NCBI GenBank assembly: GCA_904419875.1
Contig: CAJFTG010000004.1
Location: 1-64,000 of the forward strand
Direction: 5' to 3'
DNA length: 64,000 nt
Origin: Candidatus Avimonas caecicola
GTDB taxonomy: Bacteria > Bacillota > Clostridia > Oscillospirales > Acutalibacteraceae
Part shown: positions 1,339 to 48,982 of the stretch, piece after piece
Layout: every line of letters starts with the position of its first letter
Position numbering within the stretch: the first letter of the stretch is position 1
Notes under the pieces: generated by a model
Told to the model about the DNA's origin: nothing
Databases searched by the model: none
What the model saw: the letters and a program-made list of their open reading frames with translations, nothing else
Position numbers and translations under genes: made by a program

Positions 1339-1711
1339 GTGATCAACTGCGTGTGCATGAGGTTGTATCCGCCGCTTATATCGTAAATCACCCCGGAGGG
1401 GAAAGCTATATATTTTCGGACGTAATCTGTCAAGAATCGGTGCTTGTGGGCAAAGAACATTGAAAAAGTCCTGAAACATCGTTATGATGAGGTAAAGCGA
1501 ATCAGAAACGAAAAAGTACGGGGTTCCCCGGATTCAATGGGTAAAATCCACCAAAAACAGAGGGTTTCCACGCAAGAATCGTCTGCCGCCGCCTGGCGCC
1601 GGGTTGAAAGAATGAGCCCGCGCTTCGGCGATTTTATATTGTATTTCGGTGATTTGCTCAAGATATACCCAGCGGATTTTCACAGGCGCTCCTATCATTG
1701 AACGGAAAGGG

Positions 1712-4621
1712 ATGGCTCACTCCATGCGGAATTCTGCGCTTTCACGCCGCCGGTTTAGGCGGCTGACCAGCCGGACCGGAGCGGCGGCTCTGGCCCTCTG
1801 CCTGCTGTCGGCGAACATCTCCGGGACTCCCCTGCGCGCCCGTGCTCAGGACGTTCCCACCGCTGTACAGGATATGGCATCCCGGGACAATTTTTATGCT
1901 TATTTGCAGCCGTATGCCGACGCACCGGAGTTTTCCGGGGAAATTGCCTTATCGGCGGCGGAGGCGGTGCTGGAAAAGGCGGAAAGCCTGCCGCCCTCTC
2001 AGGGCCGGGAATGGGAGGTGTTGCTGGAGGAAAAGGGCTATATCACCCTCGCCTTCAACGTACCCGACGAAGCCTTATACTGCCTGGAACTGGACTATCT
2101 GTACGAGGATAACCAGGGCGAGGAAGTGCAGATGTATTTTCAGGTGGACGGGGAGCATCCCTATCTGGAGAGCAAGGCCCTCGCCTTGAAAAGTGTGTGG
2201 AGGGACGTGGGCGGCATCCGGTCCGACGCCCAGGGCAACGACCGGATTCCCCAGCAGGAAGAGGTTTTTCGCTGGCAAACCTTTCTCGTGCGGGATTTTG
2301 CCGGTATGAGCAGCAGTCCCCTGAAGGTCTATCTGACGGCCGGGCGGCACGAGCTGACGGTCGGCTCCGCCGAAGGCCGGTTCCGCATCGGCGGCATCCG
2401 TCTGCGCGGGGAACCGGCCATTCCCACCTACGCGGAGAAAAAGGCGGAATATGACGAGTTGGAGCTCAAGCCGGTGGAGGATATCTGTCTGGTCTATCAG
2501 GCGGAGGCTCCCGCAGAAAAAACCGACCAGATCCTGTACCCTACCTATGACCGAAGCAGCCCAGCCACCCAGCCCTACGAGGTTGGCAAGATCAAGAGAA
2601 ACACCATTGGTCAGGAGAACTGGGCCTCTGCCGGTATGGCCGTCACCTATGAGGTGACGGCGCCCGCCGACGGGCTGTATCTGCTGACGCTGAAATACAA
2701 GCAAAGCCTGCAGACCGACATGACCTCCTTCCGCAGTATCAGCGTCAATGGAGAGATTCCCTTCAAGGAAGGGGAATGTGTTTCCTTCCCCTTCGGCTTC
2801 GGTTGGGAGAATAAAACCCTGTCGGACGCGCACGGCAATCCCTGTTATATCCATCTGGCCAAGGGTCCGAATACAATCCGCATCGAGGCCACCGTGGGAT
2901 CCATGTCCGCCGTTCTCGACAAGGTAGACCAGATCGTTTACCGGATGAACGAGATTTACCGCCGCATCATGATGATCACCGGCACCGACCCGGACACCAA
3001 CCGCGACTACTATCTGGACCGGGAGATTCCTCAACTGGCCGACTGGCTGAAAGAACAGGCGGCGGAGCTGGAGGAGGCCGCAGACATGGTGCAGGAGGAA
3101 TATGGGCGGCGGACCAGTGAAGCGGAAAAGTTTATCCGGGTCGCCGACATGCTCCGGGATTTTGCCGATGAGCCGGCGGACATCGCCATGCGCTTCTCTG
3201 AAATGCGCAATGAGATCAGCACTCTGACCAACTGGCTGATTGATGCACAGGATCAGCCGCTGGAGCTGGATTATTTTATCCTCCACTCTGCGGACGCGGA
3301 ACTGCCCTCCGCCAAGGCTACTTTCTGGGAGCGGTTAAAAAACGGTTTCCTCAACTTTATTCATTCCTACATGGAGGACTATACCGGCCGTCAGTCGGAG
3401 GGGGAACGGACCATCACGGTGTGGTCCAGCGACGGGCGGGAGCAGGTGCAGCTCCTCAAGGATTTGATCAACGACCGCTTCACCCCGGAAACCGGTATCG
3501 CGGTGAATCTGAGCCTGGTGCAGGGCGGCTTCATCGAGGCGACGCTGGCGGGTAAGGGCCCCGATGTGGCCCTGGGTGTAGCCCGGGGCCAGCCGGTCAA
3601 TCTGGCGTGCCGGGGGGCGCTGTTGGACCTGAGCGGCTTTGACAGCTATACATCCGTTACCCAGCGCTTTCTCCCCGAGGCGATGCTTCCCTATGAATAC
3701 AACGGGGGCTGCTACGCCCTGCCCACCACCCAACAGTTTTTCATGATGTTCTATCGCACCGATATATTGGAAGCCCTGGGGCTGGAGCCGCCCCAGACCT
3801 GGAAGGAGCTGAACTCCCTGCTGCCGGTGCTGGATCGGCACCACATGACGGTGGGACTACCCTATGCCTCTGTTTCAGCGCTGAGCGCCGTGGACGGCGG
3901 GCTGGGTTCCAAGGATATGTTCCCCCTGCTACTGATGCAAATGGGCGGCCAATTCTACAACGAGGACCAGAGCGCTACCGGCTTCGACAGCCCGGAGGCA
4001 GTGGAGGCCTTCAAGATGTGGGTGGATTTCTATGTCAAGCGCGGCTTTGACCTGACCTTTGACTTCAACTCCCGGTTTCGCAGCGGCGAGATGCCTCTAG
4101 GCATTGCAACCTACCAGACCTACAACCTTTTGAGTGTGGCAGCGCCCGAAATCCGCAACCAGTGGGCAATGCTGCCGGTGCCCGGAATCGAAAAGGAAGA
4201 CGGGACCATCGACCGCACGGTGGGCACCTCCGGAACAGGCTCGGTCATCTTCAAAAAGGCCGCCGATCCGGACGCCTGTTGGGAATTCTTGGATTGGTGG
4301 TCCAGCACCGAAATCCAATACCAGTACGGCATTGGCATCGAGAACCTGTTAGGCCCGGCGGGACGCTATACCCCCTCCAATGTGGAAGCCATGAAGCGGC
4401 TGCCCTGGTCCTCCGATGAATGGAGGGTGCTGGAGGAGCAAATGTCTTTTATCCGGGAGATTCCTGAGGTTCCCGGCAGCTATTATGTGTCCCGCTCCCT
4501 GGACAACGCGTTCCGCGACGCCACCTACAACATGGCCAACCCCCGGGAGGCTCTGGAAAGAGAAAACGAAAAAATCAACCGGGAACTGGAGAGAAAACGG
4601 CAGGAGCTGGGGATCAAATAG
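1712..4621 (+). CDS. Giant extracellular solute-binding protein with N-terminal jelly-roll-like domains and a helical linker (cassette 1)
   Basis: About 969 aa; signal peptide; two N-terminal beta-rich repeats; SBP domain in the C-terminal ~380 aa (ALPTTQQFFMMFYRTDILEALGLEPPQTWKEL); paralogue at 34562-37381. Start chosen among ATG 1649/1712/1724. Confidence 0.85.
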   Translation: MAHSMRNSALSRRRFRRLTSRTGAAALALCLLSANISGTPLRARAQDVPTAVQDMASRDNFYAYLQPYADAPEFSGEIALSAAEAVLEKAESLPPSQGREWEVLLEEKGYITLAFNVPDEALYCLELDYLYEDNQGEEVQMYFQVDGEHPYLESKALALKSVWRDVGGIRSDAQGNDRIPQQEEVFRWQTFLVRDFAGMSSSPLKVYLTAGRHELTVGSAEGRFRIGGIRLRGEPAIPTYAEKKAEYDELELKPVEDICLVYQAEAPAEKTDQILYPTYDRSSPATQPYEVGKIKRNTIGQENWASAGMAVTYEVTAPADGLYLLTLKYKQSLQTDMTSFRSISVNGEIPFKEGECVSFPFGFGWENKTLSDAHGNPCYIHLAKGPNTIRIEATVGSMSAVLDKVDQIVYRMNEIYRRIMMITGTDPDTNRDYYLDREIPQLADWLKEQAAELEEAADMVQEEYGRRTSEAEKFIRVADMLRDFADEPADIAMRFSEMRNEISTLTNWLIDAQDQPLELDYFILHSADAELPSAKATFWERLKNGFLNFIHSYMEDYTGRQSEGERTITVWSSDGREQVQLLKDLINDRFTPETGIAVNLSLVQGGFIEATLAGKGPDVALGVARGQPVNLACRGALLDLSGFDSYTSVTQRFLPEAMLPYEYNGGCYALPTTQQFFMMFYRTDILEALGLEPPQTWKELNSLLPVLDRHHMTVGLPYASVSALSAVDGGLGSKDMFPLLLMQMGGQFYNEDQSATGFDSPEAVEAFKMWVDFYVKRGFDLTFDFNSRFRSGEMPLGIATYQTYNLLSVAAPEIRNQWAMLPVPGIEKEDGTIDRTVGTSGTGSVIFKKAADPDACWEFLDWWSSTEIQYQYGIGIENLLGPAGRYTPSNVEAMKRLPWSSDEWRVLEEQMSFIREIPEVPGSYYVSRSLDNAFRDATYNMANPREALERENEKINRELERKRQELGIK

Positions 4622-4686: not shown

Positions 4687-5637
4687 ATGGCGATACAGAA
4701 AGCCAAAATAAAGCCCCGAACGGCATCCGCCGCGGGCAAGGGGAAGTCCGTGGGACGTTACTTGCTAGATCACCGGGCCAGCTACATACTGATGCTCCCC
4801 TTTATGTCCCTTTTCTTCATTTTTACCGTTATCCCCGTGGTATCCTCCATGGGACTGGGATTGACCTATTTCAATATGCTGGAACCTCCCCGATTCGTTG
4901 GCTTCATGAATTTTGAGCGGATGCTGCTGGACGATGAGGTGTTCCTGATCGTATTGAAAAACACCCTGATCTTTGCGGTGATCACCGGGCCCATCGGGTA
5001 TATCATCTCCTTCTTCTCCGCCTGGCTAATCAATGAACTGGGAAACACCCTGCGCACGGTGATGACCTTTATTTTCTATGCTCCGGCGCTGTCCGGCAAT
5101 ATGTATTTCATCTGGGGCATCCTGTTCAGCGGCGACCGCTACGGCCTGATCAACTCCCTGCTGCTGCAGCTAGGTCTGACCAGCCAGCCCATGCAGTGGT
5201 TCAGCGACACTTCCCTCATTATGCCTGCCCTGATCGTGATTCAGCTCTGGCTCAGCCTGGGCACCGGGTTCCTGGCCTTTATCGCCGGGTTTCAGGGGAT
5301 GGACAAGAGCCTGTTTGAGGCCGGGGCCATCGACGGCATCCGCAACCGCTGGCAGGAGCTGTGGTACATCACCATCCCGTCTATGTCCCAGATCATGCTG
5401 TTCAGCGCCGTGATGCAGATCGGCGTCTCCTTCGGGGTGGGCAGCATCGTCCAGGCGCTGGCGGGCTTCCCCACCACCGAGTACTGCGCCGATACCATCA
5501 TCACCTATATCGCGGATGTCGGCACCGTCCGCTTTGAAATGGGATATGCCTCGGCAATCGCCGTGTTCCTGTTCCTGATGATGCTGCTGACCAACTTTCT
5601 CATCAGCCACGTACTGAAGCGCTTCAGCCAAGACTGA
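4687..5637 (+). CDS. ABC transporter permease, MalF/LplB-type (F, cassette 1)
   Basis: 316 aa, about 6 TM segments, EAA-loop EAGAIDGIRNRWQELWYITIPSM. Confidence 0.92.
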   Translation: MAIQKAKIKPRTASAAGKGKSVGRYLLDHRASYILMLPFMSLFFIFTVIPVVSSMGLGLTYFNMLEPPRFVGFMNFERMLLDDEVFLIVLKNTLIFAVITGPIGYIISFFSAWLINELGNTLRTVMTFIFYAPALSGNMYFIWGILFSGDRYGLINSLLLQLGLTSQPMQWFSDTSLIMPALIVIQLWLSLGTGFLAFIAGFQGMDKSLFEAGAIDGIRNRWQELWYITIPSMSQIMLFSAVMQIGVSFGVGSIVQALAGFPTTEYCADTIITYIADVGTVRFEMGYASAIAVFLFLMMLLTNFLISHVLKRFSQD

Positions 5638-5652
5638 GAAAGGACGGACCGA

Positions 5653-6507
5653 ATGAGCGTATTATTCAAGAAAAAGGTGAACCGCTCCCTGGGCGGCAAT
5701 CTTCTGATCTTTCTCCTCCTGCTGCTGATGGGCGGCTTTCTGATCATCCCGCTGATATATGCTGCCTCTTCGGCGTTCAAGCCCCTGGATGAAATTTTTA
5801 TCTTCCCGCCCCTGATTTTCGCGAAAAAACCCACCTGGAACAATTTTATCTGGCTGGGGCAGATCGTCAACGATTTTTGGGTCCCTCTGTCCCGATACAT
5901 CGTGAACAGCGTGTTGGTGAGCGTGGTGGCCACTGTCGGCCACATCCTGTTTGCCAGTATGGCGGCCTATCCCCTGGCCAAGCACCAGTTTGCCGGAAAG
6001 TGGCTGCTGAACACTCTGGTCCGCCTGGCGCTGCTGTTTACCTCCACCGTCACCTATATTCCGCAATACATCGTTATGGCCCAGTTAGGGCTCATCAACA
6101 ACCAGCTGGCCCTGATTCTGCCCGCTCTCCAATCCTCTCTGGGCCTGTATCTGATGCAGAGCTTCATGGCCGGGATTCCGGGCGAGATGCTGGAGGCGGC
6201 CAGAATCGACGCGGCGTCGGAATACCGGATCTGGTTCTCCATCGTCATGCCCAATGTGAAGCCCGCGTGGCTGACGCTGATGATCTTTTCCTTTCAGGGA
6301 ATATGGAACAATACCGGCGGTACCCTGGTGTATCAGGAGAACCTCAAGGTATTGCCCTCCATTCTCGGACAGATCAGCGCGGGGGGCATCGCACTGTCCG
6401 GCGTCACCGCCGCCGCAACACTGGTGATGCTGATCCCGCCGATCATCCTGTTTTTGGTGTCTCAGAACCGGGTAATCGAAACCATGAGCACATCCGGCAT
6501 GAAATAG
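5653..6507 (+). CDS. ABC transporter permease, MalG/YtcP-type (G, cassette 1)
   Basis: 284 aa, multi-TM, EAA-loop EAARIDAASEYRIWFSIVMPNVKPAW. Confidence 0.92.
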   Translation: MSVLFKKKVNRSLGGNLLIFLLLLLMGGFLIIPLIYAASSAFKPLDEIFIFPPLIFAKKPTWNNFIWLGQIVNDFWVPLSRYIVNSVLVSVVATVGHILFASMAAYPLAKHQFAGKWLLNTLVRLALLFTSTVTYIPQYIVMAQLGLINNQLALILPALQSSLGLYLMQSFMAGIPGEMLEAARIDAASEYRIWFSIVMPNVKPAWLTLMIFSFQGIWNNTGGTLVYQENLKVLPSILGQISAGGIALSGVTAAATLVMLIPPIILFLVSQNRVIETMSTSGMK

Positions 6508-6523: not shown

Positions 6524-8641
6524 ATGATGGGCATGAGGAAGGAAATAGCGGGAGGAAACCGGAAAGGCCGCCGATTTCTCGCCGTTTTCTTGGCGGCGCT
6601 TCTGGCTGCGGGCTGTGCCCTTTCCGCGGAAGCGGCGCAGACATCTTTCAGCTATGTTTACAACTCCAAGGACGAATCGGTCCCCACCGCCCTGGCCTAT
6701 GAGCCTGTGGCAACGGTCTCCGGGCTGGAGATGGGCGCCGGGGCGCTGAACAAGCCTCAGGACATGGTGGTATATGACGATGAGGTCTATATCCTGGACG
6801 CAGACAATCAGCGGATTGTGGTGCTGGACCGAGAACTGAGGCTCCGCCGAATTGTGGAGCCTCATAATCCGGACGGCTCCCGGCTGGAGCTTCAGACCGC
6901 TCTGGGGGTCTATGTCAGCGGCCAGACGGTGTATGTGGCCGACCGGGGCGCTCAAACCGTCTACCTGATGGATCAGGAGGGAACGGTGACGGGTGCCATC
7001 CCCTCGCCCGACCCGGCCGTCCTGCCGCCGGATTTTCAATATGAGCCCTCCAAGGTGCTGGTATCCTCCAGCGGATATGTCTATGTGGTATCGGTGGGCT
7101 CCACCTCCGGGGCCCTGATGTTTGATCCCCGGTTGGATTTCATCGGCTTTTTCGGCAGTTGGGACGTAGACGTCACCGAAAGCCTGATTTTCGACAATTT
7201 CTGGCGGAAGATCATGAATTCCCAACAGGTCCTCAGCGCACTCAACCGCCGGCTTCCCGATCCCATGGTGAATTTCGTCATCGATGATGAGGATTACATT
7301 TACGCCATCCGGGGCACCGCCGGAGGGCGGCAACAGGTACGCCGTCTGAATTCCCAGGGTGCCAATATTTTGTATACTCCCTCCGGCCAATGGGGGATGT
7401 TCTCTGAACGGGAAACCTGGTTTGATGAGCAGAACAACGTATATGTGGACTCCCTCCTCTGCGATATCACGGTGGACGAGGAGGGGTTTATTACCGTGCT
7501 GGACAGCACCCGGGGACGGATTTTCCAGTACGATCCCCAGTCCAATAATCTGTTCGCTTTCGGCGGAATGGCCTCCCAGGCGGGGACCTTTCAGTCCCCC
7601 GTCGCCATCGACCGGCTGGGCGAGAGCTTGCTGGTGTTGGACCAGAAGGCCGGGACCGTCACAGTGTTCCGACCCACCAAATTTGCCGACGACGTGCATA
7701 CCGCCTCGGTGCTGTACCAGGACGGGAAATACATCGAGGCCAAGCCCTACTGGGAACAGGTGCTGAAAATGGATCCCAACTATGAGCTGGCCAACATCGG
7801 CATGGCCAAGGCCTGTTCCAAGCTGGGAATGCACCAAGAGGCGCTGGAATACTATCGCCGGGGCAACGACAAGGAAGGCTACTCCGCAGCAGCCAAGCTG
7901 CTGCGGGACGATACCCTGCGCCGATGGTTTCCGTGCGTGCTCACCGGCTTTGTTCTCCTGCTGGGCGGCCTGATATTCTGGCTGCTCTACAGCGAAAGGC
8001 ACCGGAAAAACGACTATATCGTCCAGATCAGCCGGGGCCGGTTCCCCATGTACTGCATGGCCCATCCCTTCAAGGGATATACCGAGCTAAAATTTGAAAA
8101 AAAGGGTTCCGTGGCCATCGCCAACGGTATACTGGCGGTTTTCTTCATCGTCTCGGTACTGAACCGGCAGCTGACCAGCTTCGCCTTCAGTACCAGCGAC
8201 GGGGTCCCCTTCAACCTGCTGCTGGAGCTGGGCAAGACCGTCGGCCTGTTCGCCGCCTGGGTGGTGTGTAACTGGGCGGTCAGCACCTTCACCGACGGCG
8301 AGGGAAAGCTGCGGGAAATCTGGATCTTTACCGCCTACGCCCTGCTGCCCTACATCCTAACGCTGGGCGCTCTGACCCTATCCAGCCATATTTTCTCCCT
8401 GCAGGAGCGGGCGTTCTACGATATTTTCCAGAATATCGGGATGCTCTGGTTCCTAGTCAGCGTGCTGATGTCGGTGAAAGAGGTCCATCAGTATACCATG
8501 AAGCAGACAATTTTCCATCTGATACTGACCTTTGTGGGAATCGCCTTTATCATCCTGATCATCACGGCGGTATACAGCATGCTTGTGCAGCTGTTCGGCT
8601 TCCTGATCACCTTGGGCAATGAGCTGCGGATGCGGTCCTAG
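6524..8641 (+). CDS. NHL-repeat/TPR-like exported protein fused to C-terminal Yip1-like membrane domain (cassette 1)
   Basis: 705 aa: signal peptide, NHL-type repeats (LNKPQDMVVYDDEVYILDADNQRIVVLD), TPR-like KYIEAKPYWEQVLKMDPNYELANIGMAKA, TM, then multi-TM domain with DGEGKLREIWIFTAYALLPY. Confidence 0.85.
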   Translation: MMGMRKEIAGGNRKGRRFLAVFLAALLAAGCALSAEAAQTSFSYVYNSKDESVPTALAYEPVATVSGLEMGAGALNKPQDMVVYDDEVYILDADNQRIVVLDRELRLRRIVEPHNPDGSRLELQTALGVYVSGQTVYVADRGAQTVYLMDQEGTVTGAIPSPDPAVLPPDFQYEPSKVLVSSSGYVYVVSVGSTSGALMFDPRLDFIGFFGSWDVDVTESLIFDNFWRKIMNSQQVLSALNRRLPDPMVNFVIDDEDYIYAIRGTAGGRQQVRRLNSQGANILYTPSGQWGMFSERETWFDEQNNVYVDSLLCDITVDEEGFITVLDSTRGRIFQYDPQSNNLFAFGGMASQAGTFQSPVAIDRLGESLLVLDQKAGTVTVFRPTKFADDVHTASVLYQDGKYIEAKPYWEQVLKMDPNYELANIGMAKACSKLGMHQEALEYYRRGNDKEGYSAAAKLLRDDTLRRWFPCVLTGFVLLLGGLIFWLLYSERHRKNDYIVQISRGRFPMYCMAHPFKGYTELKFEKKGSVAIANGILAVFFIVSVLNRQLTSFAFSTSDGVPFNLLLELGKTVGLFAAWVVCNWAVSTFTDGEGKLREIWIFTAYALLPYILTLGALTLSSHIFSLQERAFYDIFQNIGMLWFLVSVLMSVKEVHQYTMKQTIFHLILTFVGIAFIILIITAVYSMLVQLFGFLITLGNELRMRS

Positions 8642-8677: not shown

Positions 8678-10936
8678 GTGCGTATGATACAGGCAATTTG
8701 GCGACGCCGCATCGCGGCGGGAATCGCGGCTTTCACCCTGCTGATTTCCATGACCTCCGCCGCGGGGAACGCGGAAAGGGAGAAGGTCGCGGCTGCGCCG
8801 CCTACAGCAGTCACCCCCGCCGGCCCTTTTAGCGGGCGGGTGGAAAACAGCCGGTTCCGCCTGGAGCTGAAGCATTTTCAGGACGAGGACGGCGAATCGG
8901 AGGCGGCGTATCTGGTCCTATCCGACAAGGAGACCGGCATGGTGTGGAACAGTTCCCCGCCCGACGCCGGAGAGGATCCTCTGGCGAAAAACAGTATGAA
9001 AACGGCGTTAAAATCCTTGCTGCAGATCCGCTATGCGGATCAGGATTCCAACCTTTCCCTGGCGAACAGCGCCGTAAACGCCAGGCGGACCACCTTCCTG
9101 GAGATTCCCGACGGGGTACGGGTGACCGTCCGGTTCGAAAGCGAAGGCATTACGGTCTCCATGGACATCTCATTGACCGAGGAGTATCTGAAAATTACCA
9201 TTCCCGTCCTGGAGATCGACGAGGAAGAAGACTCCGGCATGAAGCTGGTCTCGGTCATCCCCCTGCCCTATTTCGGCGCCCTGCATATGGATGAGGAAGG
9301 CTACATGCTGGTCCCGGACGGCAGCGGCGCCCTGATCGACAGCAGCCGGATGGGCAACGGGGCTAAGACGTATAAGCAGTATATCTATGGCCGGGATCCC
9401 GCCATTGAGCAAAAAACCAGCCAGTTGGTCACCGCAAACGCCCGTCTGCCCGTTTATGGGACGAAAAAAGGGGACGCAGGGGTTCTGGGTATAATCCATA
9501 CAGGGGCCTCCCGCGCCTGCGTCAACGCTTCCCTTGGCGGGGACACCCAATCCTATCACAGCCTGAACGCGGAGCTGATTTACCGGGATTTTGCCACGGT
9601 GGACGTGGGAAAAAAGACTTACCAGTCCATCAAGGTGAACCTGTTTGAGGATAAGCCGGTACAGGAAGAAAACTTTGAAATCCGTCTGTATCCCCTTACA
9701 GGCGAGGACACGGGCTATGTGGGGATGGCCCGGCAGTACCGAGACTATCTGCTGGAAAACGGCGTATCCCCCTCCGCTTCCGCCGGGACGGCGCCCCTGT
9801 ATGTGGAGCTGTTTGGCGGGGTGAAGCGGCAGACCAGCGTACTGGGCATCCCCATGGACCGAGTGGTACCCATCACCTCCTATGAGGATGTCCGGACTAT
9901 TGTGACCGCCCTGCAGGACAACGGAGTGGAGGAGCTGGTGGTAGGCTACACCGCCTGGGGAAAGGGCGGTTCCTCCAGCCGGATTCCGCTAAAAATGCAG
10001 CACGAGGGGGCTCTGGGGAGCAAAAAGGACTGGCTGTCCCTTCAGGAGGAGCTGGCCTCCCGGCAGATCGCCCTGTATCCCGATCTCAATTTCACCGATA
10101 TCTATCAGGGCGGCGGATTCAGCGGCAAAACCGACGGGATCAAAACTATGCAAAAAAATCCTCTGGTGGAATACCGCTACAAGCTCAGCACCTATCAGCC
10201 CAATCCCCTGCTGGAAAACACCTTCCTGCTGACGCCCGGCAAGGTGAGGTCGGCGGCGGATACCTTCGCCGCCTCCCTGAAGGAGGTGCAGGCCGCGGGC
10301 TTCTCCGCCCGCACCCTGGGGCAGAAACTGTATTCCGATTTCGGCCCCGAATCCGTCAACCGTATGCAGAGCCAGCGGATCTGGGAGGAAGCTATGGAGA
10401 CTCTGTGCGGCGCGGCGGGCAAGCTGCTGTTCAGCGACCCCAACGCCTACGCCTTCCCCTATGCGGCCCACCTGACCGACGTTCCAGCGGATTCCAGTGA
10501 ATTTCTCATTGAAAGCCGTTCGGTTCCCTTTTACCAGATCGCCCTGCATGGGATTCTGCCTATAACCCTGCCTGCGCTCAACAGCTGCAGCGATGTACGG
10601 CAGGCCAAGCTGAAAGCCCTGGAAACCGGGTGCCTGCTGAAATACACCTGGGGCGCGGAAAACTTCGACAGCCTGCTGGGCACCGAAATGGACGGCCTGC
10701 TGGGGCTGGACTATTCCCGCTGGCTGACGGAAGCGGCACAGGCTTATAGAGAGGTGCGCCCCCTCCTCCAGTCGGTGTCCGGGGTATGCATCCGCTCCCA
10801 CCGGCAACTGGCTCACGAGGTCTATGAAACCGTCTATGAAAACGGCGTCCGGGTGATTGTCAATTATAACGAAGCGCAGGTGGATGCCCACGGCGAAACG
10901 GTGCCCGGAATGGGATATCTTATCCTAGAGGAATAA
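8678..10936 (+). CDS. DUF5696-like exported protein (cassette 1)
   Basis: 752 aa; signal peptide; VPDGSGALI motif and C-terminal YENGVRVIVNY shared with paralogues at 28265-30514 and 59285-61891. Confidence 0.75.
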   Translation: MRMIQAIWRRRIAAGIAAFTLLISMTSAAGNAEREKVAAAPPTAVTPAGPFSGRVENSRFRLELKHFQDEDGESEAAYLVLSDKETGMVWNSSPPDAGEDPLAKNSMKTALKSLLQIRYADQDSNLSLANSAVNARRTTFLEIPDGVRVTVRFESEGITVSMDISLTEEYLKITIPVLEIDEEEDSGMKLVSVIPLPYFGALHMDEEGYMLVPDGSGALIDSSRMGNGAKTYKQYIYGRDPAIEQKTSQLVTANARLPVYGTKKGDAGVLGIIHTGASRACVNASLGGDTQSYHSLNAELIYRDFATVDVGKKTYQSIKVNLFEDKPVQEENFEIRLYPLTGEDTGYVGMARQYRDYLLENGVSPSASAGTAPLYVELFGGVKRQTSVLGIPMDRVVPITSYEDVRTIVTALQDNGVEELVVGYTAWGKGGSSSRIPLKMQHEGALGSKKDWLSLQEELASRQIALYPDLNFTDIYQGGGFSGKTDGIKTMQKNPLVEYRYKLSTYQPNPLLENTFLLTPGKVRSAADTFAASLKEVQAAGFSARTLGQKLYSDFGPESVNRMQSQRIWEEAMETLCGAAGKLLFSDPNAYAFPYAAHLTDVPADSSEFLIESRSVPFYQIALHGILPITLPALNSCSDVRQAKLKALETGCLLKYTWGAENFDSLLGTEMDGLLGLDYSRWLTEAAQAYREVRPLLQSVSGVCIRSHRQLAHEVYETVYENGVRVIVNYNEAQVDAHGETVPGMGYLILEE

Positions 10937-11151: not shown

Positions 11152-12072
11152 ATGACTGCCAAAGCTAAGACGCGCGCTCCCCGCGCCGGACTGAATATGC
11201 GCCGCCGGAAAACCGTGGCGGGCATACTTTTCCTCCTCCCCTGGATGATCGGCACCCTCTACTTTTTCATCATCCCTTTTCTGACCGCTTTCGCCTATTC
11301 GGTCAGCGATATCGGGATCACCCCCCATGGATTTGATCTTCATTTCGCGGGCTTTAAATATTTCCGCAGCTTTTTCACAGAGGACGGCGTTTTCCTGAAA
11401 AGCATGGTGGAATCGGTTGCCGGGGTGTTGCCCAAGGCGTTTTTCATCCTGTCCTTCAGTATCGTGATCGCGATCATTCTGCGGGGAAAATTCATCGGGC
11501 GGACCCTGGCCCGGGCGGTCTTTTTCTTTCCGGTGGTGATTTCCGCCGGGGTGGTGATCGTGGTACTCAAGGAATCGGTGATGACCTCCGGAACAGAGGC
11601 GGCCGCCATGGCGCCCTCCTACATGTTCCAGGCCCCCTCCATGACCGACCTGTTCGCCAAGCTGGGGCTGCCCTCCGTCATACTGGATAAGCTCACCCCC
11701 CTGGTCAACCAGATGTTTGATCTGACCTGGAAATCCGGGGTGCAGATTCTCCTGATGCTGGCCGCCATCAACAACATTCCCTCGTCCTCCTATGAGGCAG
11801 CTAACATCGAGGGTGCCACCGAATGGGAGAGATTCTGGAAAATCACCTTCCCCATGATCACCCCTACCCTGGTGGTGGCGGCGATCTACACCATTATCGA
11901 TACCTTTACCGACTATGCCAACCCCATGATACGTTTGATTCAGAATTATTACAAGCAGGGGTTGTACCCGGAAAGCTCCGCCGCGGGAATCAGCTATTTT
12001 ATCGGGATATTCGCGTTGATTGCGGTGTTTTACGCCATCGTTTCCCGGGGTGTGTTCCATGCCAATAATTAA
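11152..12072 (+). CDS. ABC transporter permease, second pair (F', cassette 1)
   Basis: 306 aa; EAANIEGATEWERFWKITFPM; ARAVFFFPVVISAGV and WKSGVQIL motifs shared with 38335-39243 and 58374-59288. Confidence 0.92.
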   Translation: MTAKAKTRAPRAGLNMRRRKTVAGILFLLPWMIGTLYFFIIPFLTAFAYSVSDIGITPHGFDLHFAGFKYFRSFFTEDGVFLKSMVESVAGVLPKAFFILSFSIVIAIILRGKFIGRTLARAVFFFPVVISAGVVIVVLKESVMTSGTEAAAMAPSYMFQAPSMTDLFAKLGLPSVILDKLTPLVNQMFDLTWKSGVQILLMLAAINNIPSSSYEAANIEGATEWERFWKITFPMITPTLVVAAIYTIIDTFTDYANPMIRLIQNYYKQGLYPESSAAGISYFIGIFALIAVFYAIVSRGVFHANN

Positions 12073-12085
12073 GGGGGATGCCGCC

Positions 12086-13096
12086 ATGTCCAAGGGCGCA
12101 GCCGGAACCAAATTACGTAACCGTTTTTTCCCGCGGGGCCGTTCCGTCAAGCGGACGGTGGAAACCGCGCTGAAAATCGTGGTGCGCACATTGTTTCTCG
12201 TCAGCGTGGGCTTCGTCATGCTCTACCCGGTGATTTTCATGCTGACCTCCGCGCTTAAGTCAGCCAGCGACGCCTATGATCCCACCGTGATCTGGCTGCC
12301 GAAGGCCCCCACCTTCGACAGCCTTAAGATCGCGTATGATAATCTCCAGTTTACCAAATCCCTGCTGGTCACGCTGAAGCTGACCGTTCCCTGCCTGGTG
12401 TTCCAGCTGCTGTCATCGGTGACCGCCGCCTATGGGTTCGCCCGCTTCCACTTCAAGGGCAAAAACCTCCTGTTCGGCATCCTCCTCTTTTCCATGATCG
12501 TTCCTGTCCAGACCTATATCGTTCCCTTATACGCCTCTTTCAGCAACTTCAATTTCTTCGGGGTCGGCTCCCTGGTCGGGTTGTTCACGGGCGGTACGCT
12601 GAAAGCCAATCTGCTGGACAGCATGGCGCCCTTCTACCTGATGGCGCTGCTGGGGACAGGCGTCCGCTCCGGGTTATACATCTTTATCCTGCGGCAGTTT
12701 ATGATCAATCTTCCCAAGGAGCTGGAGGACGCCGCCTTCATCGACGGCTGCGGGGAATGGACTACCTTTACGCGGGTCATCCTTCCCAACGTGGTGCCCG
12801 CTATCGTCACGGTGGCGGTGTTCTCGGTGGTATGGTACTGGAACGAATACCAGTTCTCCGGCCTGTTCCTCAGCGGGGATTTCCCGTTGTCGGTGATGGT
12901 CACCACCGTAAGCACCAAAATCGATGCGGCCGGTCAGACCATGATCGGCAGTATGGACGGCCTGACCCTGAAGTTGATGAAGGATTCCATCATGTCCAGC
13001 GCTTGCTTCCTCGTCATCCTTCCCCTGATCGTCATGTACATATTCGCCCAGCGCTATTTTACCGAAAGCATGGAGCGCACCGGCCTGGTGGGCTGA
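12086..13096 (+). CDS. ABC transporter permease, second pair (G', cassette 1)
   Basis: Multi-TM; EDAAFIDGCGEWTTFTRVILPN; ATG at 12086 preceded by AAGGGGG. Confidence 0.92.
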   Translation: MSKGAAGTKLRNRFFPRGRSVKRTVETALKIVVRTLFLVSVGFVMLYPVIFMLTSALKSASDAYDPTVIWLPKAPTFDSLKIAYDNLQFTKSLLVTLKLTVPCLVFQLLSSVTAAYGFARFHFKGKNLLFGILLFSMIVPVQTYIVPLYASFSNFNFFGVGSLVGLFTGGTLKANLLDSMAPFYLMALLGTGVRSGLYIFILRQFMINLPKELEDAAFIDGCGEWTTFTRVILPNVVPAIVTVAVFSVVWYWNEYQFSGLFLSGDFPLSVMVTTVSTKIDAAGQTMIGSMDGLTLKLMKDSIMSSACFLVILPLIVMYIFAQRYFTESMERTGLVG

Positions 13097-13372: not shown

Positions 13373-14719
13373 TTACTGGTGCAGCTCCCGGTACACCTGG
13401 CAGGTTTGCCGGGCCAGCTCGCTGATGGCCACGGGATGGGTTTCAGCCAGTCCGGAATACAGGGTATCCCCCAGAGGGGCCTTCCATTTCTCCGGGATGC
13501 GCTCGGCTCCGCAGAAGGCGCCCATCACCGAACCTACCGTGGCCCCATTGCAGTCGGCATCCATCCCCCCCATGACCGACAGGGTCAGCGCCGTTTCAAA
13601 ATCCCCCCCGGAAAACCGGATCGCCGCCAGGCAAAGGGCCGCGTTGTTGATGGTATGCACCGTATTGTACGCCTTGTATTCCTCCAGCACATTGGTGAGC
13701 AGCTCCTCCCCATCGGCGGCGGCGTCGGCAATCTCTATCGCCCGGACCATGGCCTCATAAAACCGGGAGGTGCCGGGGACTTCCCGCAGCGCGCATTCGA
13801 TGGCCCGGTTGATGTCGGTTTCGGTGAAGGCGGCGGCGATCAGGGCCGCGAAGAACATGGCGCCGTAGACGCCGTTTTTCACATGGGAGAAATAGGCGTC
13901 GGTATACGCCAGTTTAGCCGCCCGATGGGGATCTCCGGCACAGGCGTAGCCATAGGCATCAATGCGGATCTGCGCTCCAATCCATTCCCGATAGGGATTC
14001 AGATAAGTGTTCACCTTATTCCGCTTGAGCAGTTCCATAGCGTGCTCCGGCTTCCCCCACGGTCCGTTCTCATCCACGTTGATGAAATTGAGATACGCCT
14101 GATTTTCCGCCGTGCAGAGCTGGCGGAAGGGCAGCCCATAGACCCATGCTCCGCCCACGTCCCAAGAATCCCAGGAATCCCCGTGGGATTTCATCAGGTT
14201 CAGGCCGATAATGGTATACCGGATATCGTCGTCGGTGGGCATATGCCGCAAATTGTCCCGGGTGCTGTATGTATTGTTGAGCTTCACGCCCTTCTCCTCC
14301 GCGCGGGAATGGGCGGGGAGGTAATTGTCCAGGGGCCAGGCATCCGCCAATTCGCACCATTCCCGAATCGCCTCCCGGGACCAGAGTTCCACCGGCTGGC
14401 CCAGGGCACAGCCCACGCAGCGGCCAAGCCAGGCGCCGTACATCCTGTCGAACAGCTCCACCTCCTCCACCAGCCGGGCGGTATTGCCCAACCGGCACAG
14501 GGGAAGGATCTCCTCGTATTCACTGGGTTCGGTATAGGCGTAATCCTCCCGCACAGGCAGGCGGCCCATCTCCTCATACAGGCGCATCAGCGCCTGACGG
14601 TCCTGTCCGGCTTTCTGGATTCTGTCCTCCATTTCCTTCCGGTCAAACACGCGGCCCTCCTCGGCCAATTGATCCAGCTCTTCTTTCAATAAAATATTGA
14701 GCGTTTGATATCCAGCCAT
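13373..14719 (-). CDS. ADP-ribosylglycohydrolase family protein, predicted cytosolic
   Basis: 448 aa; metal-site-like TDDDIRYT and DADCNGATVGSVMGAFCG motifs; no signal peptide; paralogue at 17946-19439. Confidence 0.88.
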   Translation of the reverse strand: MAGYQTLNILLKEELDQLAEEGRVFDRKEMEDRIQKAGQDRQALMRLYEEMGRLPVREDYAYTEPSEYEEILPLCRLGNTARLVEEVELFDRMYGAWLGRCVGCALGQPVELWSREAIREWCELADAWPLDNYLPAHSRAEEKGVKLNNTYSTRDNLRHMPTDDDIRYTIIGLNLMKSHGDSWDSWDVGGAWVYGLPFRQLCTAENQAYLNFINVDENGPWGKPEHAMELLKRNKVNTYLNPYREWIGAQIRIDAYGYACAGDPHRAAKLAYTDAYFSHVKNGVYGAMFFAALIAAAFTETDINRAIECALREVPGTSRFYEAMVRAIEIADAAADGEELLTNVLEEYKAYNTVHTINNAALCLAAIRFSGGDFETALTLSVMGGMDADCNGATVGSVMGAFCGAERIPEKWKAPLGDTLYSGLAETHPVAISELARQTCQVYRELHQ

Positions 14720-17945: not shown

Positions 17946-19439
17946 TTGAACATCAAACACCCCATTGCCCTGGCGGCCTGCTGCTGTCTGCTGCTGGCCC
18001 TGACCGCCTGCAATACCAAAGGCGGCGACGCCTCCGGGGGAGATTCCTCGCAAACCAGCGCCCCCACCGATGAGGCGGAAACCATTATCCAGCGGGACCC
18101 CGATATTTCCCGGAACGCCTGGCTGGAGGAAGAAATCGAGCAGCTCTGGCAGGAAGGATACGACATCGACGTAACCGCCTATAAATCCAAAGCAGCGATG
18201 GCCAACGGGGACAAAACAGAGGAAGAAAAGCTGTATTACGAAATGCTGGCCCTCCCCATGCGGGCCGACTACCCGTACAAAGAGCCCTCCGACTATGAAA
18301 GCATCATGGAGCAGGTCTCCCCCAGCATGGGATTTGTGGAAAACCCCTCCAACAGCGAAATGGACGACCGGTTCTACGGCGCCTGGCTGGGCCGGTTTAT
18401 CGGCTCCGCCCTGGGGATGCCCATTGAAATGTGGATGCCGGAGAAAATCAGGACCTGGTATGAGAAGGCGGATGCCTGGCCTCTGGACAACTATGTCCCC
18501 ACCACCTCCAGGGCGGCGCAGGAGGACGGTATTCAGCTCAACAGCCTGACCACTACCCTGGATAATATCCATGAGGTGCCCAGCGACGACGACACCCGCT
18601 ACACCGTGCTCAACCTGCAGGTGCTGCGGCTGTACAACATCACTTGGGACACTTGGGACCTGGGCTCCATCTGGCTGTGGTCCCTGCCCTTCCGGATGCT
18701 GTGTACGGCAGAACGAACCGCCTACCTGAACTTTGCGTGTCTGGACGACAACTACATGGGCGGAAAACCCGCCAATTATGAAACAATCGTCCAGAAATCT
18801 GCCACCTACATGAATCCCTACCGGGAATGGATCGGGGCGCAGATCCGGGCGGATATATGGGGCTACGCCTTTGCGGGGGATCCCCGCGGCGCTGCCAAAA
18901 TCGCCTACAAGGACGCGGCTCTCACCCATGTGAAGAACGGTATCTACGGCGAAATGTATATCGCCGCCATGATTGCCGCTTCCTTCGGTGAGAAGGATGT
19001 GGAAAAGCTGGTGGAGCGGGCGATGGCGGAGATTCCCCAGCAGACCCGCCTGTATGAGGCGGTGACCAAAACCCGGGATTTTGTCAAGGAAAACAAGAAT
19101 CCTGACGAGATCATCTCCTTCATACGGGAGAATTGGGGAAACTATAATGTGATCCATACCATCCCCAATGCGGCGATCTGCACCGCCGCTGTGCTTTACG
19201 GGGAGGGAGATTTTGAGAAAGCCCTCACCTTTACCGCCATGGCCGGCCACGACACCGACTGCAACTGCGCCACGGTGGGCTCGATAATGGGCGCTTACTG
19301 CGGCGCGGAAAAAATCCCAGGTAAATGGAAAAATGTGATCAGCGATCATTTCAATGCCCAGATTTCCGGATTTGAGGATACCTCTATCACCGCCCTCGCC
19401 CGGGAAACCAAGCTGCAATGGGAAATTTACGGGGAATGA
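17946..19439 (+). CDS. ADP-ribosylglycohydrolase family lipoprotein, predicted exported
   Basis: 497 aa, TTG start with GAAGGG upstream; lipoprotein signal LLLALTACN; SDDDTRYT and DTDCNCATVGSIMGAYCG motifs. Confidence 0.85.
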   Translation: MNIKHPIALAACCCLLLALTACNTKGGDASGGDSSQTSAPTDEAETIIQRDPDISRNAWLEEEIEQLWQEGYDIDVTAYKSKAAMANGDKTEEEKLYYEMLALPMRADYPYKEPSDYESIMEQVSPSMGFVENPSNSEMDDRFYGAWLGRFIGSALGMPIEMWMPEKIRTWYEKADAWPLDNYVPTTSRAAQEDGIQLNSLTTTLDNIHEVPSDDDTRYTVLNLQVLRLYNITWDTWDLGSIWLWSLPFRMLCTAERTAYLNFACLDDNYMGGKPANYETIVQKSATYMNPYREWIGAQIRADIWGYAFAGDPRGAAKIAYKDAALTHVKNGIYGEMYIAAMIAASFGEKDVEKLVERAMAEIPQQTRLYEAVTKTRDFVKENKNPDEIISFIRENWGNYNVIHTIPNAAICTAAVLYGEGDFEKALTFTAMAGHDTDCNCATVGSIMGAYCGAEKIPGKWKNVISDHFNAQISGFEDTSITALARETKLQWEIYGE

Positions 19440-28264: not shown

Positions 28265-30514
28265 TCAGGCCGCCGTAACGGCGCGGCTGCTGCGGGCGGG
28301 GACCGGCACCCCCTGGTACGAATATTCCTCCCCGGTGTAGTTGGTAACGATCGTCACGCCGTTTTCATATTCGGTGACGCCCACGCCGCCGACCCGGGAA
28401 TGGCGGACAATCGCCTGATCCCAAACCGGTTCCAGCAGCGGCTCCAGCCATTCCATAAGCTCCTTCGCCTGCTGGAGCACATCCTCGTAATAGGACGCGT
28501 ACAAATCATTCAGCTGGGTGTTCAGGAAATCCGCCGACGGGCAGCCGGTCACCTCAAACTGCGGCATCACGCCGCTTTCCGCCAGCCGCAGGCCCCAGTC
28601 CTCAAAATCGCTTTTGCCGGTCAGGGATTCGCTGTACAGGGGCAGCAGCCCATGGACCGCCATGGCATAAAAGGGGACCGCCTCGCTCTGCAGGTCAAAG
28701 GCGCTGCTGTCCACCGGTATGTCCCGCAGGCCGGATGCGTACTTCAGCAGGTAGGCGTTGGCGCCGCCCAGAAGCAGGCGGGCTTCCCCGTCCCCGGTCA
28801 TATACGCGGCCAGCTCGGTCATGGCGGCCTTCATATCGTCCCGGTCTTTCTCCTGCCCGTTGGTCTGATCGGCATACAGGAATTCTCCCAACCCGGCCGG
28901 CGCGAACGAGTCCAGGCCAAGCTGCGACGGGATGCGAACCATCCCCTGCCAGTCCGAAAGCCAGTTTTCCGGCCTGGTAAGGTAGCGGAAAAGCCCTTCC
29001 TCCGCCAGGTTGGTGGCCGGGGAATAGGTATACACTTTCACCGGCTCATCATTGATGCGCCGGGCGAAGCGGGACGGGAACAGCGCGTTCTTTTTGGTAT
29101 AGTGGGAAAAGACGTCGATCTCCGGCGTCAGTTCCACCCCCTGCCGGGCGCAGAATTCGGCCAGCGCCTGGAGTCCGTCCGTCCCGCCCAGAACGCCGTC
29201 CGGCTGAAAGCTCCCGGCCTGGGAACGGTACTGCCCCTTTTTGTTCAGGGAGCTGTAAACGACGGTAAGATGGGATAATCCCTCCTGTGAAAAGGCTTCG
29301 ATTATCTCCTGTGCCTGTTCAAAGGTGGTGGCCGCGTGAGAACGTTCCACCGTAAAGCCGAGCAGCGACTCCTGCCGCACATAGGCGCCGACCATGTCCA
29401 GCAGGAGGGTCGGGCTTCCGGCCGCCCCGCCTACCCCCTGCTCCTGCGTCAGATACTGCCGGTACCGGCGGGCCATACCGCTGTAATCCGCATCCTCGGC
29501 GGAAAGCAGGCAATACCGCACGCAGGGAGATTCCGTAAACCGCCGTTCCGCCTTCACGGTCACTTCCCGCGAGTTCCAATCCTTGTCGGCCAGGATGGAG
29601 GTATCCGACTGGCGGTAAACGAAGCTGGGGTAGACCCGCCCGTACTCCCCGGACTCCTTGGCCGGCGTGCAGTGAACGGCCGCGCCGGCGTCCCCGGCGG
29701 CAATGATGCCCAGAAAGGCGGCGTCCCCCGCCTTGGCCCCGAACACCGGCAGCCGGATTTCCTGCCGCACCTCCGTCTGCATTACCAGCGAAAGCGAAGG
29801 GTCGCGGCCGTAAACGTCCCCGTAATAATTCGCCGGGTTCCCGGCCGCCGCATCGTAGCTTACCAGCGCGCCGCTCCCGTCCGGGATGAACATGTATCCC
29901 TCGGTCCCTGCCGGCTGCGCCCAGAAGGACGGAAGCAGAGCGATACGGATGACCTGCATTTCCCCCCATTCCCGCACGCCGTCAAACAGGATTTCGGCGG
30001 TAAAGCCGTCCTCGGTAAGGCGGATGCGCACAGGGATGGCGTAAAGGTCGCTTTCCCGCTCAAAGCGGTAATCAAGGATGACGCCGTCCTCGCAGCCATA
30101 GATGGTGAAGGTGCCGCGGTTGACACTGCCGACACGGCTGTTAACCACGAATTCCTTGCCTACCGAGTCCATAGCCGTAACCTGCAGCATGGACTGGAGC
30201 AGCATTTTCTGCGCCCCGTCCAGCGTCTCCGGCAGCGCCTGTTCCGGAGCCGAGAGAGGGTAGCGCGCGCCTGTTTCGCGATCCTCTATGCACACCGACG
30301 CGTCCGCCGCGTTCACCAGCAGCCGCAGGCTTTCGTTTTCGGTCACGGCAATTTCCCCGGACTGCCCCGTCCCGTCGGCAATCACCGTAAGCCCCTCAAA
30401 ATCCATCCCGCCCGGCTCCTCGCCGGCCGGCGCGCTGCCGCAGGACAGCAGGGGCAGCATCAGGGCCGCAGCACAGGCCGCCAGCAGCCATCGTTTTACA
30501 CCAGTCCGTTTCAT
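28265..30514 (-). CDS. DUF5696-like lipoprotein (cassette 2)
   Basis: Starts MKRTGVKRWLLAACAAALMLPLLSCGS; IPDGSGALV and YENGVTIVTNY motifs; ATGA overlap with upstream Yip1-like gene. Confidence 0.75.
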   Translation of the reverse strand: MKRTGVKRWLLAACAAALMLPLLSCGSAPAGEEPGGMDFEGLTVIADGTGQSGEIAVTENESLRLLVNAADASVCIEDRETGARYPLSAPEQALPETLDGAQKMLLQSMLQVTAMDSVGKEFVVNSRVGSVNRGTFTIYGCEDGVILDYRFERESDLYAIPVRIRLTEDGFTAEILFDGVREWGEMQVIRIALLPSFWAQPAGTEGYMFIPDGSGALVSYDAAAGNPANYYGDVYGRDPSLSLVMQTEVRQEIRLPVFGAKAGDAAFLGIIAAGDAGAAVHCTPAKESGEYGRVYPSFVYRQSDTSILADKDWNSREVTVKAERRFTESPCVRYCLLSAEDADYSGMARRYRQYLTQEQGVGGAAGSPTLLLDMVGAYVRQESLLGFTVERSHAATTFEQAQEIIEAFSQEGLSHLTVVYSSLNKKGQYRSQAGSFQPDGVLGGTDGLQALAEFCARQGVELTPEIDVFSHYTKKNALFPSRFARRINDEPVKVYTYSPATNLAEEGLFRYLTRPENWLSDWQGMVRIPSQLGLDSFAPAGLGEFLYADQTNGQEKDRDDMKAAMTELAAYMTGDGEARLLLGGANAYLLKYASGLRDIPVDSSAFDLQSEAVPFYAMAVHGLLPLYSESLTGKSDFEDWGLRLAESGVMPQFEVTGCPSADFLNTQLNDLYASYYEDVLQQAKELMEWLEPLLEPVWDQAIVRHSRVGGVGVTEYENGVTIVTNYTGEEYSYQGVPVPARSSRAVTAA

Positions 30515-31203
30515 CGAAACAAAATCTCCTTCAGAACGGTTTGTATAAACCCGAACATCTGCTGAAGAAAGTTGAACAGCAGCACGCCGATGAAAACAAT
30601 CAGCAGCAGAAAGCCCAGCGCCGTCAGCATACAGGCAATCGTCCTTTTCAGGGTAAACTGTTCCACCACCAAGGTATTGATGACAAACAGCAGCAGCGTC
30701 CACAGCACGCCCACCGTCATCAGCAGGTTGAGGAAAACGCTCTCCTCAAGCAGCAGCACATTGGACAGCAGCATTTCCGGGAGCGAAAACACCAGGATGG
30801 GCACCAGCGCGTAGGCGCTGGTGATATACAGCTCGCGGAACCGCCCTTCCCCGTCGAACAGCGCCGACGCCGCCCAGAGCGAGATGCACCAAAGAAGGAC
30901 CGGCAGAAAAGAGACGGCCAGCTGCAGAAGGAGGCTGAACTCTTCCGGCAGGTTGGTGTTGAACAGAAAGCCCCGGGCGGAGTAGCGGAGTACGTTGTTC
31001 AGAAAGAACAGGAGCAGCAGGGCATGGGCCAAACCCAGGGAACCCATCCCCTCGTATTTGATTTCGTACAGCGCCGCAAACGGATGCCGCATCAGCCGGA
31101 ACGGCCAGCGGAGCTTGCGCTTGTCCAGGCGGCTGTAGGAATACCGGGAAAAATCCACGTTGCGCAGGGATATGCCCAGGTTTCGGATCAGCGCTTTAAC
31201 CAC
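30511..31203 (-). CDS. Yip1-like integral membrane protein (cassette 2)
   Basis: 230 aa multi-TM; FDGEGRFRELYITSAYALVPI; aligns by eye with C-terminus of 6524-8641. Confidence 0.75.
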   Translation of the reverse strand: MVKALIRNLGISLRNVDFSRYSYSRLDKRKLRWPFRLMRHPFAALYEIKYEGMGSLGLAHALLLLFFLNNVLRYSARGFLFNTNLPEEFSLLLQLAVSFLPVLLWCISLWAASALFDGEGRFRELYITSAYALVPILVFSLPEMLLSNVLLLEESVFLNLLMTVGVLWTLLLFVINTLVVEQFTLKRTIACMLTALGFLLLIVFIGVLLFNFLQQMFGFIQTVLKEILFR

Positions 31204-32722
31204 GGCGTCCTCTCCTCCTTTCGCGGCGGGGACGGGCCCCGGTATAAATCAGGAACCAGTGGATCAGCCGGTTTAAAACCACCACGGCGGCCAGCACGCC
31301 GGCCAGGAGCCAAAGCAGGTTTTCCCTCACGAAGGTCTTGCGCACCTCACGGTAAGCCTGCGAATAGCTGTCCCGGTCTTCACAGAGCCGGAACTGCTCC
31401 ATGGCCTGCATGTATTCCCCGCTCATATAATAGATCTTTCCGATGCTGCGGTAGGCCATGGGAAGGTTGGCGTTCCGGCGGGCCACCTCCTGCCAAAGGG
31501 AAAGGCTCTCGTCGTAATGCCCCACTTGGTAAAGCGAGCGGGCTTCCAGCAGCAGCCGGCCGTAGTCGGTCAGGGAATAGAGGGTAAGAACCCCCTTGTC
31601 GCTGTCCAGCACCAGCAGGCTGTCCCCGCATTTTTCTACCGCGGAGGGCTGGCGGGTTGTGCCCTGCTGCTCCCCTTCCCCGCCTACCACGCCAAACAGG
31701 TTGCACTCGTCGTCATAGATGAATACCCGGCACCGTTCGGCGTCAAGCGCGTAAAGCAGACCGCTGTCGTCCGCCAGAACGTCCTCAAAACGGCTGTCGA
31801 TCGTATTGCCCCGCAGCCGGCCTTTCTGAAGGTCGCCAAAATCATTTTTATGATAAAACACGCCGCTGTCGTCAAACCGGAGCACGTCTTCGCCCAGCGC
31901 GTTCATCTTCTTGATCTCATCCAGAGAATTCTGGGTAGAGCGGGTGGCGGTATACAGGAAATTGTCGGTCCCGATATACACGTTGGCATATTCCACCGGC
32001 AGGGCCTGCTGCATGGCGGCATTCTGCTCCTCGGTAAACAGGTTGCGCCAAAGCCGGGCAATCTGCTGGTTGAGGGTCAGCTCCACCGGGTTGCTGCCGA
32101 AAAAACCGGTAAACTCCCCCTCCGCATCAAAGGAAACCAAGCCCTGGAACACGTTGGAACAGACCACATACAGGCTGCCGGCCCGGTCCACGGCAAGCTT
32201 GCTGGGACTGAAGGCCGTCTGCTGGGGATAAATCGCCGCTTCCGGCTTGGTATAAACACGAAATACCGTACCGTCCGCCCGAAGGGCGAGCACCCGTTCA
32301 TTGCCGGTGTCCGCAATGTAGAGATCCCCCTGAGCCGTCACGAACACACCCTGCGGGTTGTTGAGCGCCTCCTGGCTGCCTTCCACCGTTACGGTGTCAA
32401 TCACCCGGTCCAGCTCAAACCGCTCATTCATGACCAAAATACGGTTGTTGCCGCTGTCTGCCAGATACACCCGCCCCTCCCGGTCGGTGAAAAGGTCCGC
32501 CGGCTTGTTGAAGGCGGAAAGGCCCAGTGACTGCCCGGAAACCGTCCGGTCAAAGGTATACAGCTCTGGAGCCGCCACCGGCGTCCCTCGCTGGTCATAG
32601 ATGTAGCTTTTATAGCTCTCGGCCGCGGAGGCCGGGACAACAAGGCCCAGGAGGGCCGCCAGCACGAGCCCGGCGGCAGCAAGCCCCCGCTTCCTGCCCT
32701 TGCCCGAATATGACAAGTTCAC
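31196..32722 (-). CDS. NHL-repeat/TPR-like exported membrane protein (cassette 2)
   Basis: 508 aa; signal peptide, FNKPADLFTDREGRVYLADSGNNRILVMNE, TPR-like segment, C-terminal TM and basic tail. Confidence 0.85.
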   Translation of the reverse strand: MNLSYSGKGRKRGLAAAGLVLAALLGLVVPASAAESYKSYIYDQRGTPVAAPELYTFDRTVSGQSLGLSAFNKPADLFTDREGRVYLADSGNNRILVMNERFELDRVIDTVTVEGSQEALNNPQGVFVTAQGDLYIADTGNERVLALRADGTVFRVYTKPEAAIYPQQTAFSPSKLAVDRAGSLYVVCSNVFQGLVSFDAEGEFTGFFGSNPVELTLNQQIARLWRNLFTEEQNAAMQQALPVEYANVYIGTDNFLYTATRSTQNSLDEIKKMNALGEDVLRFDDSGVFYHKNDFGDLQKGRLRGNTIDSRFEDVLADDSGLLYALDAERCRVFIYDDECNLFGVVGGEGEQQGTTRQPSAVEKCGDSLLVLDSDKGVLTLYSLTDYGRLLLEARSLYQVGHYDESLSLWQEVARRNANLPMAYRSIGKIYYMSGEYMQAMEQFRLCEDRDSYSQAYREVRKTFVRENLLWLLAGVLAAVVVLNRLIHWFLIYTGARPRRERRRGRRG

Positions 32723-33599: not shown

Positions 33600-33637
33600 C
33601 ACGCACTCCTCTTTTTCTTGAATCGGAAAGGGCTGGG

Positions 33638-39243: not shown

Positions 39244-39263
39244 GAAACGCCCTCCTTCGGGGA

Positions 39264-39295
39264 GGAGGCCGCTCCGCGTAATGGAAGCGGCCTCC
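39264..39295 (-). promoter_or_regulatory. Stem-loop between surface SGNH gene and F' gene
   Basis: GGAGGCCGCT-N12-AGCGGCCTCC perfect stem, no T-tract on the minus strand. Confidence 0.5.
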
Positions 39296-39319
39296 CTCCT
39301 CTCATCCAAACCTTGTACG

Positions 39320-48760: not shown

Positions 48761-48982
48761 GTTGATTTTCTCCTTTCCTTAGCCGCTGTTCCTTTACTAT
48801 GCCCCAAATGGGGAAGGCTATCCCCCCTTTTGTGCCGCGGGCCTCTTCCCCGCCGATTTCATTATACGCCTGTCCTTCCGGTTTGTAAAACGGGTTGGGA
48901 AAATCTCCGGCTTTTTCTTTCTTTTTCCCCTCCCGTCTGGTATACTGGAGGGGACAATGCAGAACAGACGGAGGCGAAGGGT

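Follow-up and report, generated by a model that had tools for sequence, protein, structure and literature searches.

Repeated fusion and separation of an NHL propeller-TPR protein and a Yip1 membrane domain point to a probable shared accessory unit in a CUT1-type importer cassette

A 64,000-nucleotide stretch of Candidatus Avimonas caecicola (hereafter the window; contig C4 begins with it, and the assembly totals 3.2 Mb in 127 contigs) carries three related transport cassettes that encode an NHL-TPR protein and a Yip1-like membrane protein in two different ways. The two are parts of one protein in cassette 1, and they are products of separate, adjacent genes in cassettes 2 and 3, an arrangement first noticed from the sequence and confirmed here by the open reading frames. 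The original prediction took this as fusion and fission of adjacent partners and, thus, as evidence for a physical or functional association. The question raised by the locus is whether the propeller and the Yip1 protein belong to one unit of the transporter or are operon neighbors whose genes joined by chance.

The fused gene of cassette 1 is a single open reading frame without interruption, and its 705-aa product contains Pfam matches to NHL, TPR and Yip1. From the N-terminus, the protein consists of a signal peptide, a six-bladed NHL propeller, TPR repeats, one TM helix (a hydrophobic helix at ~471-489), a basic linker and the Yip1 domain (residues ~506-704). The structure model (pLDDT 88, pTM 0.80) predicts the same order: a propeller of six blades leads into TPR helices, which are followed by a long helix at 450-493 that would cross the presumed membrane, a weakly predicted linker near 497-499, and then about five long Yip1 helices; a hydropathy scan of the Yip1 domain predicts 3-5. 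Pfam and the model agree with the proposal that an exported beta-propeller/TPR part is joined to a multi-TM Yip1-like domain. The fold search with the model returned NHL propellers (best E 1e-14), so that Pfam, model and fold search all place this part in the NHL repeat family (PF01436) as a six-bladed propeller, and PknD and BtuG-type propellers are among its fold or profile matches. All three Yip1 copies in the window exceed the gathering score of the Yip1 family (PF04893) across the multi-TM domain.

In cassette 2, the NHL and Yip1 genes share 8 nt, GTGGTTAA. In cassette 3, the Yip1 gene and the NHL stop codon at 62643 are 108 nt apart with the listed Yip1 start, and an alternative upstream ATG at 62630 would leave a gap of only 12 nt. 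The overlap and the ~108-nt separation that had been read from the window were both reproduced, the latter figure depending on the start chosen. Contig C38 carries a sister cassette in which Yip1 begins at the NHL stop codon, and aligning the two favors the short Yip1 form. The NHL gene of cassette 3 is cut by the end of the window and continues on the contig to give a 527-aa protein. The C-terminal part of the fusion proved homologous to the split Yip1 proteins of both cassette 2 (E 4e-28, 35% over 200 aa) and cassette 3 (E 1e-26, 29%), and the profile-profile comparison of the fused C-terminus with split Yip1 gave E 6e-59. The NHL-TPR halves are related as well (E 7e-70 between the fused N-terminus and the cassette 2 protein).

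These genes sit in a conserved eight-gene cassette (Table 1), whose usual order is SBP, permease A, permease B, NHL-TPR and Yip1 (fused or separate), DUF5696, permease C and permease D. All three cassettes of the window have the full gene set, counting the part of cassette 3 that lies beyond the window; the exception to the order is cassette 2, where the C/D permease pair sits upstream. Several other genes were observed around the cassettes: AraC regulators near cassettes 1 and 2, two ADP-ribosylglycohydrolase family genes (13373-14719, minus strand; 17946-19439, plus strand), a gene for a secreted protein of 947 aa that ends in an anchor-like tail (39320-42163, minus strand), a GH123 gene (45232-46947, minus strand) and a YfhO-type membrane protein gene (48617-51754, plus strand). 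An Rfam search of the 64-kb window gave no match.

Table 1 Cassette genes in the window (positions in the window; c1-c3, cassettes 1-3)
Feature	Positions	Strand	Basis or remark
SBP, CBM35-like modules at the N-terminus, MalE-type C-terminal half, c1	1649-4621	+	start uncertain
CUT1 permease A, c1	4687-5637	+	EAA-type loop
CUT1 permease B, c1	5653-6507	+	Pfam, EAA-type loop
Fused NHL propeller-TPR-TM-Yip1, c1	6524-8641	+	ORF, Pfam, model, homology to split Yip1s
DUF5696, GH129-like fold, c1	8678-10936	+	Pfam, profile, model
CUT1 permease C, c1	11152-12072	+	
CUT1 permease D, c1	12020-13096	+	start uncertain
DUF5696, c2	28265-30703	-	Pfam; start uncertain
Split Yip1, c2, 8-nt overlap with NHL gene	30511-31203	-	Pfam, homology
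Split NHL-TPR, C-terminal TM helix, c2	31196-32722	-	Pfam, homology
Permease B, c2	32736-33680	-	
Permease A, c2	33638-34534	-	
SBP, c2	34562-37381	-	
Permease D, c2 (C/D pair upstream)	37416-38345	-	
Permease C, c2	38335-39354	-	
Permease D, c3	57458-58381	-	
Permease C, c3	58374-59333	-	EAA-type loop
DUF5696, c3	59285-61891	-	
Split Yip1, c3, upstream ATG 62630 possible	61896-62534	-	Pfam, homology
Split NHL-TPR, c3, runs past window to 64226	62643-64000	-	Pfam

The three window copies belong to a much larger set. The genome contains 19 Yip1 domains above the Pfam score and 20 DUF5696 proteins, and we found 20 NHL/Yip1 pairs, of which 12 are fused and the other 8 split, in ~20 paralogous cassettes, some of which are interrupted by contig ends. 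One fused pair, on contig C2, was counted from reading the locus, its Yip1 part having been missed by the Pfam search. By our estimate, ~20 cassettes of ~12 kb make up perhaps 8% of the 3.2-Mb genome. A scan of GTDB genomes yielded 80 further loci in Paenibacillus, Bacillus, Lachnospiraceae, Oscillospiraceae, Ruminococcus, a Dictyoglomus MAG and other hosts, all of which hold the pair, 40 fused and 40 unfused; the query was the fused alignment, so this fused share may be inflated, a bias from which the count in the genome itself is free. Whether fused or adjacent, the two domains keep one order in 20/20 copies of the genome and in 80/80 GTDB loci, and the same neighbors are nearly always kept in the latter where the contig permits. 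These counts also make an assembly or sequencing error at the junction near 8000-8040 very unlikely, since 11 other paralogues in the genome are fused, as are 40 independently assembled loci at the same place, one of them (L045) on a complete Paenibacillus chromosome; we rejected this explanation.

Fusion is specific to this junction. It was found in 40 of 80 cases between NHL-TPR and Yip1 and in 0 of 452 at the six other cassette junctions (Fisher p 4e-38, which overstates independence because the loci are related). It has also recurred. In a 100-row tree, the fused or split state switches at least 8 times, 3 of these switches being forced by well-supported branches, and shuffled labels on the same tree need 33 changes; one clade of 26 rows is fused throughout. 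A single fusion or fission event was rejected (log-likelihood lower by 263, AU p 3e-65). The switches are counted on an unrooted tree, and each may be a gain or a loss of the fusion.

Most of the unfused pairs touch or overlap, by exactly 4 nt in 16 of the 40 and by 1, 8 or 11 nt in others. In three loci (L046, L051 and L055), a base-by-base check placed the Yip1 ATG directly after the NHL stop codon and in frame. Judged from the sequence, such junctions would permit translational coupling, and a small change would suffice for fusion. Fission by an in-frame stop, considered for the rows scored as having one TAA inside, was withdrawn because that TAA may simply be the stop codon at the end of the gene. 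One MAG copy counted as unfused (L107:4998-7139) is a disrupted fusion that now reads as two ORFs, and its close relative L108 is intact. The Yip1-DUF5696 junction, normally tight, is unusually wide in two loci (~800 nt at L070:7123-7930 and ~260 nt at L046:7166-7428).

The pair also travels with the rest of the cassette. Among 147 genomes of the order, with four genomes carrying weak generic NHL matches set aside, strong NHL-Yip1 and DUF5696 occur together in 71, DUF5696 alone in 2 and NHL-Yip1 alone in none, so that 71/73 positive genomes carry both. In 300 genomes of the phylum, both occur in 26 and an NHL fragment alone in 1 (26/27). The junction counts, the repeated switching, the adjacency in all 100 copies, the 4-nt overlaps and this near-perfect co-occurrence together bear out the association read into the fusion, and a functional association of propeller and Yip1 is well supported by comparison of the loci. 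The NHL-TPR protein probably binds Yip1 physically too. Fusion itself means that linkage is tolerated and has been repeatedly fixed; it is not proof that the separate proteins bind.

The remaining genes indicate what kind of transporter the pair accompanies. A MalE-type SBP and two permeases with an EAA-type loop fit a CUT1 ABC importer; the permeases are of the MalF/MalG type, and the ATPase-docking loop is kept in all four permease types. The SBP combines CBM35-like modules with a MalE-type domain, its nearest match being the Listeria protein Lin1841, and in cassettes 1 and 2 the N-terminal CBM35-like modules span ~500 aa, an unusual architecture. For the DUF5696 model (pLDDT 88.5, pTM 0.89), GH129 enzymes are the top fold matches (5opq, E 2e-30; NagBb, E 1e-23), and the profile search agrees (E 1.5e-12), indicating that DUF5696 has the overall GH129 fold. 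The model aligns with the GH129 glycosidases NagBb and ZgGH129 over nearly full length at TM 0.6-0.7, but identity is ~12%, Pfam treats DUF5696 as a family of its own, and a search for a GH129 Pfam match to it found none. D554, a candidate catalytic residue, is present in 37/41, and a DE pair near residues 613-614, found in most relatives, is SR in cassette 1; judging from this pair, DUF5696 copies may differ in activity. The cassette has no MalK-type ATPase. The genome encodes one, on contig C15, and the importers are, therefore, probably powered in trans by it. Multitask ATPases are known in Firmicutes (PMC7658222), and the cassette resembles CUT1 importers sharing MsmX or MsmK in its MalE-type SBP, its EAA permeases, the absence of an ATPase gene from the cassette and the single MalK-type ATPase of the genome, but it differs from them in having two permease pairs, an SBP that carries CBM35-like modules, and NHL-Yip1 and DUF5696 as conserved genes.

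The nearest known parallel for the Yip1 half, and the one characterized bacterial Yip1 protein that we found, is YknW of Bacillus subtilis, described as modulating assembly of YknWXYZ (PMC4887032, PMC4338810). There, too, the gene for a multi-TM Yip1 protein accompanies those for an ABC transporter and for an extracellular partner anchored in the membrane. However, YknWXYZ is a MacB-type exporter with a dedicated ATPase and a membrane fusion protein, whereas the cassette has CUT1 importer permeases, an SBP, a GH129-like protein, and, as the partner of Yip1, a propeller/TPR protein to which it is fused in roughly one copy out of two. With permeases of the MalF/MalG type and no gene for an ATPase or a membrane fusion protein in the conserved cassette, the likeness is one of mechanism only. 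Bacteriocin clusters, too, combine Yip1 genes and ABC genes (PMC10707071). The fused protein shares the six-bladed NHL fold with TRIM-NHL proteins and the PknD sensor domain; unlike them, it continues from the propeller into TPR and a membrane domain of the Yip1 family, and it is encoded in a transport cassette. In literature outside subscription journals and protein databases, we found neither a mention of DUF5696 nor an account of the cassette, the latter sought through Yip1 in combination with NHL or solute-binding proteins; protein databases may nevertheless already hold the domain architecture. We regard the cassette as a variation on the known CUT1-type importers, set apart by a proposed accessory unit of Yip1 and propeller.

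Could the two genes be mere operon neighbors, joined without functional meaning when a stop codon lay close to the next start? Overlapping genes need only single-step changes to fuse, and the mirror-tree partial correlation between NHL and Yip1 is low (0.16), showing no tie beyond the shared cassette history. Yet none of the other junctions is fused, even though 4-nt overlaps occur at 34/73 DUF5696/permease C junctions and 8/76 permease A/B junctions; topology may forbid some of these fusions, but not that of permeases A and B. We consider chance joining improbable. Also improbable is a reading in which a co-substrate would pass through the Yip1 half, acting as channel or transporter, with the propeller as its receptor and the ABC permeases separate. 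Transport of hydrophilic solutes has been suggested for prokaryotic Yip1 (PMC6682643), but we found no transporter similarity by sequence, and Yip1 is always encoded alongside two complete permease pairs. The main rival is a sensor, in which the propeller would bind glycan or the loaded SBP outside and Yip1 would relay the signal to the membrane or cell and control the cassette. Propellers of the NHL type can act as sensors or bind ligands, as the PknD and BtuG-type matches recall, AraC regulators are close to two cassettes, and a receptor role has been raised for prokaryotic Yip1 (PMC6682643). However, a domain search of the fused and split forms found no known signaling domain, whether kinase, anti-sigma or output domain, and we regard the sensor as rather unlikely.

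We favor, with a probability of roughly 55%, a reading in which a glycan importer is assisted by an accessory unit that contains propeller and Yip1 in a 1:1 ratio, with the Yip1 half acting like YknW. The 1:1 unit is suggested by the recurrent fusion, strict adjacency and gene overlap, and the assembly or docking role by what is reported of YknW in ABC transporter assembly. NHL-TPR and Yip1 would be halves of one membrane unit, kept 1:1 through fusion or through touching or overlapping genes. The propeller and TPR would lie outside the cell on one TM helix, with the Yip1 half adjacent in the membrane. Within a cassette that also supplies a CBM-bearing SBP, two CUT1 permease pairs and the exported GH129-like DUF5696, the Yip1 half may contact a permease and the propeller/TPR half may hold or position the extracellular parts, thus organizing the complex, while the one MalK-type ATPase would supply ATP hydrolysis in trans. 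Both the assembly role and glycan as the substrate class are inferred. The leading mirror-tree pairs by log distances (NHL-DUF5696, 0.49; Yip1-permease D, 0.48; permease A-B, 0.47) fit such docking, but are only suggestive, as the ranking shifts with other transforms. Against the accessory unit stand the higher values of NHL-DUF5696 and Yip1-permease D compared with NHL-Yip1, the exporter nature of YknWXYZ with its unrelated extracellular partner, and the split Yip1 profile, which found no relative among solved structures searched by sequence.

More tentatively, the cassette could represent an undescribed class of glycan importer, at ~20 copies per genome, in which propeller-TPR-Yip1 is an obligatory subunit that unites the two CUT1 permease pairs, the CBM-bearing SBP and the GH129-like enzyme in a single complex of the cell envelope. 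If true, this would be, to our knowledge, the first importer with a Yip1 subunit. The repeated fusion ties one Yip1 lineage to a definite partner and machine, giving it a role that can be tested directly. Cassettes of this kind occur across the Bacillota and are frequent in Paenibacillus, Lachnospiraceae and Ruminococcus, with species of the rumen and the gut among their hosts; being so widespread and occupying such a share of this genome, they probably matter for glycan uptake.
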